Origin: Rhodospirillaceae bacterium SYSU D60007
GTDB taxonomy: Bacteria > Pseudomonadota > Alphaproteobacteria > Reyranellales > Reyranellaceae
Direction of reading: 5' to 3'
Assembly: GCA_003574685.1 (NCBI GenBank)
Contig: QOCQ01000024.1
Coordinates: 1-64,000 of the forward strand
Length of the DNA: 64,000 nucleotides
Part shown: piece by piece, positions 21,141-25,512 of the stretch
Numbering within the stretch: the first letter of the stretch is position 1
Layout: each line of letters opens with the position of its first letter
The notes under the pieces: model-generated
What the model was told of the DNA's origin: nothing
Databases searched by the model: none
The model's input: the letters and a program-made list of their open reading frames with translations, nothing else
Program-made: the position numbers and the translations under genes

Positions 21141-21222
21141 CGCTGGGGGCGCGTCACTCCAGTGACGGCTCACGTGTCCTGGTCCGTAGAAGCCGCGCCA
21201 CTGGAGTGGCGCGCCCCCAGCG
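21141..21222. repeat. 82-bp nested inverted repeat element
   Basis: The ends CGCTGGGGGCGCG (21141-21153) and its complement (21210-21222) are perfect inverted repeats. Each arm also contains an inner palindrome, CGTCACTCCAGTGACG on the left and CGCCACTGGAGTGGCG on the right. The core matches the larger element at 24196-24333. It lies in the 130-bp gap between the SDR and carboxyltransferase genes. It is probably a non-autonomous palindromic repeat; it could also shape the operon mRNA. Confidence 0.65.
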
Positions 21223-22854: not shown

Positions 22855-22874
22855 TGCGGTGGAGATATGAAGAG

Positions 22875-22972
22875 TTCACCACAGAGACACAGAGGACACA
22901 GAGAGAAGAAAGTCTCGGGCGCCTTCGGCGCGTGGAAATCATCCTCTGTGATCTCTGTGCCTCTGTGGTGAA
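22875..22972. repeat. 98-bp inverted repeat of CACAGAG units
   Basis: The left arm (22875-22903) starts TTCACCACAGAG; the right arm (22944-22972) ends CTCTGTGGTGAA. The 29-base arms are complementary except at 3 positions, and each contains three CACAGAG units. The centre holds GCGCC-TTC-GGCGC. The composition is markedly less GC-rich than the flanking genes. I recall the same TTCACCACAGAG..CACAGAG motif in many unrelated environmental genomes, so this is likely a mobile or dispersed repeat. It lies between the carboxyltransferase and the first AtuD-like gene. Confidence 0.7.
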
Positions 22973-23018
22973 ATCTTGCTGCTGCGCATCGATCAGACTT
23001 TAGAAGGCGACCAGGCAG

Positions 23019-24179
23019 ATGCAATTCACCGCCGAGCATGAGGAGCTGCGCCGCACGTGGCGCACCATCATCGACCGCGAGATCAACCCGCATGTCGACG
23101 AATGGGAAGAGGCCGGCATCTTCCCGGCACATGAGCTGTTCAGAAAGCTGGGGAGCGCCGGGCTGCTGGGCGTCGACAAGCCGGTCGAGTTCGGCGGCGC
23201 CGGCCTCGACTTCTCATACGCGATGGTCTGCGCCGAATCGCTGGGGCACGTCAACGGCGGCTCGATCCCCATGGCGGTCGGCGTGCAGATCTCGATGGCG
23301 ACGCCGGCGCTGGCGCGCTTCGGCAGCGACGACCTGCGCCGTGAGTTCCTGGCGCCCTCCATCAGCGGCGAGTACGTTGCCTGTCTCGGCGTGTCGGAGG
23401 TGGGCGCCGGCTCCGACGTGGCCAGCATCAAGACCACCGCGCGGCGGGTCGGCGGCGACTACATCATCAACGGCGGCAAGATGTGGACCACCAACGGCAC
23501 CCAGGCCGACTGGATGTGCCTGCTGGCCAACACGGGAGAGGGCGAGGCCCATCGCAACAAGTCGCTGATCTGCGTGCCTATGAAAGCGAAGGGCGTGCAG
23601 GTGGTGAAGAAGCTCGACAAGCTTGGCATGCGCGCTTCCGACACCGCGCAGATCTTCTTCGACGACGTGAAGGTGCCGATCCGTAACCTGATCGGCCAGG
23701 AAGGCATGGGCTTCGTCTATCAGATGAAGCAGTTTCAGGAGGAGCGCCTGTGGGCCGGTGCCGGCACCCTGCAGGGCTGCGATCGCATCATCAACGCCAC
23801 GATCGAGTACACGCGCGAGCGCAAGGTGTTCGGCCGGCCACTGCTGGACAACCAGGTGATCCACTTCCGGCTCGCCGAGCTGAAGAGCGAGGTCGAGGGC
23901 CTGCGATCGCTGGTCTACCGCGCCTGCGAGGAGTACCTGGCCGGCAAGGATGTCACCATGCTGGCGTCAATGGCCAAGCTGAAAGCCGGCCGCCTGCGGC
24001 GCGAGGTCTCGGATTCCTGCCTGCAATACTGGGGCGGCGCCGGCTATCTGTGGGACAACCCTGTCGGCCGTTCGTTCCGCGACGGCAGGCTGGGATCGAT
24101 CGGCGGTGGCGCCGACGAGATCATGCTGCAGATCATCGCCAAGCTCATGGGCACCCTGCCCAGACCGGAGGCGAAGTGA
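23019..24179 (+). CDS. Acyl-CoA dehydrogenase, citronellyl-CoA dehydrogenase (AtuD)-like, copy 1
   Basis: This 386-residue FAD enzyme would introduce the alpha,beta double bond into a branched acyl-CoA. It starts M-Q-F-T-A-E-H-E-E-L-R-R-T. Hallmarks are G-V-S-E-V-G-A-G-S-D-V-A-S-I-K, W-T-T-N-G-T-Q-A-D-W-M-C and L-G-M-R-A-S-D-T-A-Q-I-F-F, which resemble what I remember of Pseudomonas AtuD. The catalytic Glu is probably E367 (G-G-A-D-E-I-M). It is followed by a near-identical-length paralogue at 24352; the two are separated by a palindromic element. Cluster context supports citronellyl-CoA or a similar terpenoid acyl-CoA as substrate. Confidence 0.85.
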   Translation: MQFTAEHEELRRTWRTIIDREINPHVDEWEEAGIFPAHELFRKLGSAGLLGVDKPVEFGGAGLDFSYAMVCAESLGHVNGGSIPMAVGVQISMATPALARFGSDDLRREFLAPSISGEYVACLGVSEVGAGSDVASIKTTARRVGGDYIINGGKMWTTNGTQADWMCLLANTGEGEAHRNKSLICVPMKAKGVQVVKKLDKLGMRASDTAQIFFDDVKVPIRNLIGQEGMGFVYQMKQFQEERLWAGAGTLQGCDRIINATIEYTRERKVFGRPLLDNQVIHFRLAELKSEVEGLRSLVYRACEEYLAGKDVTMLASMAKLKAGRLRREVSDSCLQYWGGAGYLWDNPVGRSFRDGRLGSIGGGADEIMLQIIAKLMGTLPRPEAK

Positions 24180-24195: not shown

Positions 24196-24333
24196 GCCGG
24201 GAGCGCGCCACTCCAGTGGCGCACTGCCCGGAGCGTCAGCGGAGGGCAGCCGTCGTCCCGCGTCAGCAGCCGCTGCAAGACTTGGCTTCGCTGGCGCTTC
24301 GCCAATGCGCCACTGGAGTGGCGCGCTCCCGGC
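24196..24333. repeat. 138-bp MITE-like element with 28-bp perfect terminal inverted repeats
   Basis: The 28 bases at 24196-24223 (starting GCCGGGAGCGCGCCACTCC) are perfectly complementary to 24306-24333. Each end carries the inner palindrome GCGCCACTCCAGTGGCGC. The 82-base middle has no coding potential. The element fills almost the whole gap between the two AtuD-like genes, shares its core with the element at 21141-21222, and has a decayed relative at 5147-5172. I saw no obvious target-site duplication. Confidence 0.75.
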
Positions 24334-24351
24334 AATGATACAGGTACGACC

Positions 24352-25512
24352 ATGCAGTTCACAGCAGAGCACGAGCAGATCCGGCGCACGTTGCACAGCA
24401 TCATCGACCGGGACATCAATCCGCATGTGGACGCATGGGAGGAGGCCGGCATCTTCCCGGCACATGATGTCTTCCGGAAGCTGGGCGAGGCCGGGCTCCT
24501 GGGCATCCACAAGCCAGTCGAGTATGGCGGCGCAGGCCTCGACTATTCCTATGCGCTGGTGATGGCCGAGGAGCTGGGCCACATCAATTGCGGCTCGGTG
24601 CCCATGGCGATCGGCGTGCAGACCGACATGGCGACGCCGGCCCTGGCGCGTTTCGGCAGCGACGAGTTGCGCCGCGAGTTCCTCGCCCCCTCCATCAGCG
24701 GCGAATACGTCGCCTGTCTCGGCGTGTCGGAGGTCGGTGCCGGCTCCGACGTAGCATCGATCAAGACGACGGCGCGCCGGGTCGGCGGCGACTATGTCAT
24801 CGATGGCGGCAAGATGTGGACCACCAACGGCACCCAGGCCGACTGGATGTGCCTGCTGGCCAATACCGGCGACGGGCCGGTTCACCGCAACAAGTCCCTG
24901 ATCTGCCTGCCGATGAAAACCAGGGGCGTGCAGGTAGTGAAGAAGCTGGACAAGCTTGGCATGCGCTCGTCGGACACCGCACAAATCTTCTTCGACGAGG
25001 TGAAGGTGCCGGTCCGCTACCTGATCGGCCAGGAAGGCATGGGCTTCACCTACCAGATGCAGCAGTTCCAGGAGGAGCGGCTGTGGGGCGCCATCAGCGC
25101 CGTGGTCGGCATGGAGCGTCTGATCGACCAGACCATCGAGTACACGCGCAACCGCAAGGCCTTCGGCCGGCCGCTGCTCGACAACCAGGTGATCCATTTC
25201 AGGCTGGCTGAGCTGAGGACCGAGGTCGAGACGCTGCGTTCGCTCTGCTACCGGGCGTGCGAGGAATACATCGGCGGCGCGGATGTCACGATGCTGGCCT
25301 CGATGGCGAAGCTGAAGGCCGGCCGCGTCGTGCGCCAGGTGGCGGATGGCTGCCTGCAATACTGGGGCGGCGCGGGATACCTGTGGGAGAGCCCGACCGC
25401 GCGCGCCTTCCGCGACACGCGGCTGGCCTCGATCGGCGGCGGCGCCGACGAGGTGATGCTCCAGATCATCTGCAAGCACATGGGCACCCTGCCCCGCCTG
25501 GAGAACCGGTGA
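24352..25512 (+). CDS. Acyl-CoA dehydrogenase, citronellyl-CoA dehydrogenase (AtuD)-like, copy 2
   Basis: This 386-residue paralogue of the preceding gene has the same length and no gaps. For example, 31 of the first 40 residues are identical and the middle is almost unchanged (G-V-S-E-V-G-A-G-S-D-V-A-S-I-K; W-T-T-N-G-T-Q-A-D-W-M-C). The base is again E367 (G-G-A-D-E-V-M). Differences cluster near L-W-G-A-I-S-A-V-V-G-M-E versus L-W-A-G-A-G-T-L-Q-G-C-D (around 245-260), a region that lines the acyl pocket in this family, so substrate ranges may differ. The stop overlaps the next ATG (TGATG), so it is coupled with the hydratase. Confidence 0.85.
   Translation: MQFTAEHEQIRRTLHSIIDRDINPHVDAWEEAGIFPAHDVFRKLGEAGLLGIHKPVEYGGAGLDYSYALVMAEELGHINCGSVPMAIGVQTDMATPALARFGSDELRREFLAPSISGEYVACLGVSEVGAGSDVASIKTTARRVGGDYVIDGGKMWTTNGTQADWMCLLANTGDGPVHRNKSLICLPMKTRGVQVVKKLDKLGMRSSDTAQIFFDEVKVPVRYLIGQEGMGFTYQMQQFQEERLWGAISAVVGMERLIDQTIEYTRNRKAFGRPLLDNQVIHFRLAELRTEVETLRSLCYRACEEYIGGADVTMLASMAKLKAGRVVRQVADGCLQYWGGAGYLWESPTARAFRDTRLASIGGGADEVMLQIICKHMGTLPRLENR

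Follow-up and report, generated by a model that had tools for sequence, protein, structure and literature searches.

A CACAGAG-armed hairpin inserted in a bacterial operon, and the gene for a predicted nuclease, GxxExxY, found between the same arms in related genomes

The hairpin at the carboxyl transferase/acyl-CoA dehydrogenase junction

The window, by which we mean the whole 64,000-nucleotide stretch of Rhodospirillaceae bacterium SYSU D60007 DNA that was analysed, contains a carboxyl transferase gene (PF01039; 21238–22854, + strand) followed by an acyl-CoA dehydrogenase gene (PF00441, PF02770 and PF02771; 23019–24179, + strand). The 164-bp spacer between them (22855–23018, + strand) holds an inserted inverted repeat. 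The 29-nucleotide arms of a preliminary description, with three mismatches and three CACAGAG units each, were found again at 22875–22903 and 22944–22972, and the full inverted repeat spans 22870–22903 and 22944–22977, with 34-nucleotide arms that are 88% complementary and separated by 40 nucleotides. Inverted-repeat detection, together with alignment to 17 other copies from the Reyranella group, delimits a left arm (22870–22903, + strand) in which an outer box AAGAGTTCACC precedes three CACAGAG units, and a right arm (22944–22977, + strand) in which three CTCTGTG units precede GGTGAAATCTT. The loop region between them (22904–22943, from the inverted repeat and the fold) includes a central GCGCCTTCGGCG stem at 22919–22930, which is also seen in the alignment. 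The terminal arms are tandem CRCNNAG units that start with TT[CA]ACC and lie in inverted orientation. Folded as RNA, the inverted repeat reaches −64.1 kcal/mol (z = −9.05), which none of 200 shuffled sequences equalled; it is real and well beyond chance. At the gathering score, the window had no match in Rfam.

The GC content of the 98-bp element is lower than that of the window (54% versus 66%), as had been noted, and is matched by 1.1% of sampled 98-bp segments, the arms having 52% and the loop 57.5%. The same description had called this composition foreign. However, the CACAGAG motif is itself GC-poorer than the host genome, so the dip most probably reflects the make-up of the motif, and an origin from a foreign donor was not borne out. 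As an 8-mer, CCACAGAG occurs in the window about as often as chance predicts (2 copies, 1.98 expected); the unusual feature of the hairpin is the paired arrangement of its units.

Two further features of the operon were observed. A second palindrome, GCGCCACT-NN-AGTGGCGC, occurs there in three perfect copies (21195–21212, 24205–24222 and 24307–24324), and 7 matches with at most 3 mismatches were counted versus 1.4 expected. Positions 23019–23318 and 24352–24651 are 81% alike over 300 bases, and the two neighbouring genes of acyl-CoA dehydrogenase kind to which they belong (the Pfam scan covered the first only) look like a tandem duplication.

To compare occupied and empty sites, we examined 28 loci for the junction of the two genes, 26 of which had both anchors (one per genome, window included). 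The hairpin was present in two of the 26, namely the window's own genome and the congener G001, and the spacers of the other 24 genomes measured 2–169 bp and had no CACAGAG. Two of these hairpin-free spacers (L152 and L158) contain unrelated palindromes, so the junction appears to tolerate repeated hairpin insertion. The hairpin of the window is an insertion, not a local structure of the operon. Since the G001 hairpin has a similar central stem, the two are probably one old, shared insertion, and the window copy is probably an old, inactive passenger common to the window's genome and this one congener. The occupied/empty comparison that had been suggested delivered relatives lacking the element at the junction, but not clean boundaries.

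A dispersed repeat whose arms enclose a GxxExxY gene

Counting the window, such arms occur at eight or more loci of the genome from which it derives. When 61 genomes were searched, with 14 candidates scored in each, 10 had arm matches; the sister genomes G001 and G003 had many, and 20 dispersed copies were retrieved from the arm-matching genomes. Across an alignment of the window copy and 17 more, the consensus end is GAAGAATTCACCACAGAG, and most aligned copies of the genus have a central GCGCGCC-nnn-GGCGCGC stem. The hairpin of the window therefore belongs to a dispersed repeat family. Dispersed copies occur in its own genome, in sister genomes and in other lineages, which agrees with the statement in the preliminary description that the motif is scattered among unrelated bacteria. 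Given these copies at further loci and the sites without a hairpin in relatives, the structure is not confined to this operon position; such confinement is what would have overturned that description. The central stem of the short copies was not seen as such in two gene-bearing copies read by eye (L055 and L057), which suggests that the short form multiplies as a unit. In two pooled sets of 45 and 59 copies, the left arm of a copy was more complementary to its own right arm than to those of other copies (P = 0.002 each), a difference that was not significant within the window's genome (n = 6) or within G001 (n = 7, P = 0.08).

The arm motif was also found in at least 120 stretches of IMG/VR, and no GxxExxY gene was found among the loci searched in viral contigs. 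When 80 of these stretches were used to look for occupied/empty pairs, no pair with clean boundaries emerged: contigs L281 and L344 are both occupied, L302 (a 72% match to L314) has another palindrome and no CACAGAG at the site, and L296 (which matches L325) and L324 (which matches one flank of L310) have hairpins of other units. The tandem units at about 4735–4975 of L296 and about 2140–2310 of L324 are GCGAGACAGCGAG-like and CACGGAG, where the matching contigs carry CACAGAG; at these sites one arm type has possibly been replaced by another.

In G002 and G003, the two congeners that have a GxxExxY gene (PF13366/TIGR04256), the same arms enclose it: one arm is made of three CACAGAG units and the opposite arm of three CTCTGTG units, to which G003 adds one CTCCGTG. 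The flanks of the G003 gene-bearing copy were matched in no other of 25 genomes. The window's genome has no PF13366 match and holds a decayed gene-bearing copy. In G002, a complete gene-bearing element lies between carA and carB (identified by Pfam). At this place the window's genome has a 299-bp spacer (L006) with the same arms and, as in G002, the gene start VTTERDPLTGK; the rest of the gene was lost, and a further palindromic repeat with CTTCATGGTGAGC and GCTCACCATGAAG ends was gained. G044 has an apparent remnant at this place, and G004, G005 and G040 have other inserts. The carA–carB spacer measures 0–19 bp in 12 of the 18 genomes with both anchors, two further genomes that lacked an anchor lying outside the 18. 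The element supplies the stop codon of carA and adjoins an AAGAAGA stretch, which is native in some element-free relatives (G001 and G003) and may be part of the target.

The enclosure extends beyond the genus. Among 111 PF13366 genes (from 119 loci, of which only those with 200 bp of flank at either end were used), which are not independent because they include one duplicate (L057 = L062), a possible double (L058/L061) and orthologue sets from Pedobacter, Chryseobacterium, Nostoc and Flavobacterium, 72 were surrounded by inverted arms at a score of at least 14, versus 1 of 345 control positions shifted by 1.2 or 2.2 kb within the same loci. At an arm score of 20, 39 genes were enclosed versus one control. 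Many of the 39 genes below a score of 14, which include 21 of the 39 in Bacteroidota, have weaker arms. The association of the arms with the GxxExxY gene is well supported. Where the phylum is named (73 of these loci), the gene was surrounded by score-14 arms in seven phyla: Pseudomonadota (9 of 14), Planctomycetota (5 of 5), Verrucomicrobiota (2 of 3), Bacteroidota (18 of 39), Cyanobacteriota (5 of 6), Acidobacteriota (2 of 2) and Chlamydiota (the single gene, with a long and odd repeat); the one gene each from Chloroflexota, Ignavibacteriota and Bacillota had none. The unit differs by lineage (CACAGAG, CACAAAG, CGCAAAG, CGCAGAG, CACATAG, CACGAAG or CACAGAT), and the design is one throughout. 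In Sphingomonas parapaucimobilis (L173), the gene lies between fabD and fabG and its arms are of a different unit, CGCGAAGGCGCGAGG. A search that started from the arms (110 loci, drawing on the same 80 IMG/VR stretches) returned nine arm-bounded stretches of 261–1500 bp, one with GxxExxY; no second enzyme was recognised in the six of the other eight that were read for open frames, one of which appeared on reading to hold a ThiF/MoeB-like host gene.

The GxxExxY protein and its relation to the arms

To our knowledge, the GxxExxY family (TIGR04256/PF13366) has no tested function. All 47 aligned proteins match both TIGR04256 and PF13366, and among 109 proteins E22, D61 and E71 are present in 100% and K73 in 99%, followed by a conserved HxAQxxxY. 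An AlphaFold2 model (mean pLDDT 96.4) had as its best structural neighbour 4ic1 (SSO0001; Z 9.7 over 99 residues, rmsd 3.5), which we take to be a Cas4; the other neighbours scored Z <7.5, near the level of common arrangements. Weak Cas4 profile matches were obtained for 20 of the 47 proteins, no relative of the nuclease was found in the PDB by sequence, and a search with Foldseek by itself had no match below E 0.001. From its putative catalytic residues and modelled fold, GxxExxY is predicted to be a small PD-(D/E)XK nuclease with a Cas4/RecB-like fold, which differs from Cas4 and RecB in comprising the nuclease core alone, at about 115–120 residues. Carriage by phages or plasmids was considered and rejected, because matches were scarce: at E 1e-5, GxxExxY was absent from all 50,697 phage records and present in 8 of the 72,556 plasmid records, and at E 0.001 the window element matched one phage record, four plasmid records and no E. 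coli record, no match covering 80% of it.

From lineage to lineage, the arm motif varies together with the protein. Mapped onto a 108-protein tree with 78 labelled members (GAG, AAG, TAG or GAT), the arm type changes 13 times, versus 33.7 times in shuffles and 30.5 times when labels were shuffled inside each phylum or family code (no shuffle out of 300 was as low), and with one row per genus 9 times versus 14.1, the counts being confined to loci whose arms fit a type. The choice of CAC or CGC in the first unit changes 10 times versus 18.4, or 7 versus 9.8 with one row per genus (P = 0.017). A Mantel test on 86 of the 109 proteins, those with arms scoring at least 12, gave r = 0.36, and 0.14 (P = 0.007) for pairs below 65% identity.

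This relation extends to the dispersed copies. Of 27 genomes searched, 22 had CAC- or CGC-type gene arms and at least one copy; the five that were set aside had arms of another or unidentified type (four) or no copies (one). In the 22, CAC copies made up a larger share if the gene arms were themselves CAC (P = 0.007), with the CAC and CGC classes set by eye after counting and L079 classed from its upstream side alone. There were counter-examples, in which the dispersed copies are mostly (L082, L129 and L136) or by leaning (L081 and L096) of the other unit type than the gene arms. In one genome with CACATAG gene arms, the copies were CACATAG, CACTAAG and near variants, and none was CACAGAG.

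Gene and motif also occur together at the level of whole genomes. Of 299 Pseudomonadota genomes, 56 had PF13366, 45 the motif and 31 both (Fisher P = 1.8e-16), and a reversed control pattern gave one match across the 299. One family supplies 29 of the 31 double-positive genomes, the association having P = 0.017 within this family and P = 0.029 outside it, and 14 of the 45 motif-bearing genomes have no PF13366 match. The highest motif count among the 299 was 104 arm matches in a 2.9-Mb genome (G182), from which eight stretches (L234–L241) were fetched.

How the hairpins may have spread

We consider it probable, at roughly 0.68, that the hairpin of the window belongs, as a non-autonomous copy, to a family of mobile hairpins in which the gene-bearing members have GxxExxY between the same arms. 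Because the arms tightly enclose the gene in relatives, the nuclease is likely to be the engine of repeat spread in several phyla. From this arrangement we infer that the nuclease mobilises the hairpins. The arms would pair into a hairpin or cruciform; the nuclease would recognise the tandem heptamer arms, probably in that form, and would cut outside the TT[CA]ACC end, at the outer ends of the arms; and cutting might let copies spread in trans, in the way suggested for RAYT and REPINs. Neither cutting nor excision nor a fresh insertion was observed. Of the interpretation first offered for this locus, the dispersed element with empty sites has held, the foreign composition was not borne out, and the enclosed nuclease gene had no part in that account.

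A different possibility, which we regard as rather unlikely, is that the nuclease benefits the host in repair, recombination or defence, and that the hairpins are its action sites or regulators and spread incidentally. In some genera the gene has stayed at a single location, something for which a purely selfish element would have no need: matching flanks were seen in all 45 Pedobacter, all 3 Nostoc and all 6 Chryseobacterium pairs, and in 6 of the 10 Flavobacterium pairs. At such loci, dN/dS was 0.04–0.11 in the unsaturated pairs shown for Pedobacter, Nostoc and Flavobacterium, with at most 8 pairs shown per set, many of them with saturated dS, and Chryseobacterium pairs too similar to judge. 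However, the gene is patchily present (56 of the 299 genomes), insertions lie in operons such as fabD–fabG, and carA–carB shows a remnant as well as sites without the element. A benefit to the host can be compatible with a mobile hairpin family carrying the nuclease gene, which remains the best explanation.

Still less probable is that the hairpin is a classical MITE, a deletion derivative of a putative DDE-transposase insertion sequence. Like a MITE, it is non-autonomous, has terminal inverted repeats, is dispersed as short copies with sites lacking the element, and has a related gene-bearing form. This form, however, was found to carry a PD-(D/E)XK gene between its arms and no DDE transposase. 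Moreover, 134 short copies (taken from all loci retrieved up to that stage, with only identical copies removed, and including no base-precise occupied/empty pair) gave no convincing sign of a target-site duplication, the best offset giving 0.29 identity versus 0.23 in shuffled sequences (z 3.8, best of 160), so that a staggered DDE cut seems unlikely.

That the hairpin is a REP or REPIN moved by a RAYT (HUH Y1 transposase) is very improbable and was rejected, since, although the repeat is short and palindromic and three of the four genomes of the genus have Y1_Tnp genes, all six Y1_Tnp loci of the genus lack CACAGAG and CTCTGTG within 1.5 kb and carry other palindromes, the Y1_Tnp gene of the window's genome sitting between copies of GCGCCACT/AGTGGCGC and others between further palindromes, as judged by eye. 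As similar copies lie on both sides of this RAYT-like gene (L051), the GCGCCACT-NN-AGTGGCGC palindrome is likely the REP of the genome's own RAYT.

In its working, the nuclease-borne hairpin family may nevertheless resemble REPIN/RAYT systems, without being a member of them. On the description of RAYT in PMC3116915 and PMC8266576, the two have in common short repeats that form hairpins and number in the tens, a small number of nuclease genes per genome, situated next to such repeats or flanked by them, retention of the gene in related species, and co-variation of repeat and enzyme. The window hairpin itself is a dispersed hairpin of two inverted units. The differences are that the enzyme here is predicted to be PD-(D/E)XK and not HUH Y1, that the arms are tandem heptamers with TT[CA]ACC ends, and that the six Y1_Tnp loci, where a cognate RAYT would be flanked by the repeat, had no CACAGAG within 1.5 kb.

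Whether GxxExxY and the heptamer-armed hairpins form a separate class of mobile element, a convergent counterpart of REP/RAYT in which a lone nuclease would disseminate hairpins without a DDE, HUH, recombinase or reverse-transcriptase partner, we regard as evenly balanced. In the open-access literature searched, we recognised no description of the pairing of the hairpin with GxxExxY, nor of the enclosure of GxxExxY by inverted repeats, and we know of no report of this pairing. The association offers a testable role for a nuclease family without a known one, and may explain where the puzzling TTCACCACAGAG repeats seen in environmental genomes come from. If true, it would add an enzyme class to those that spread short bacterial repeats.
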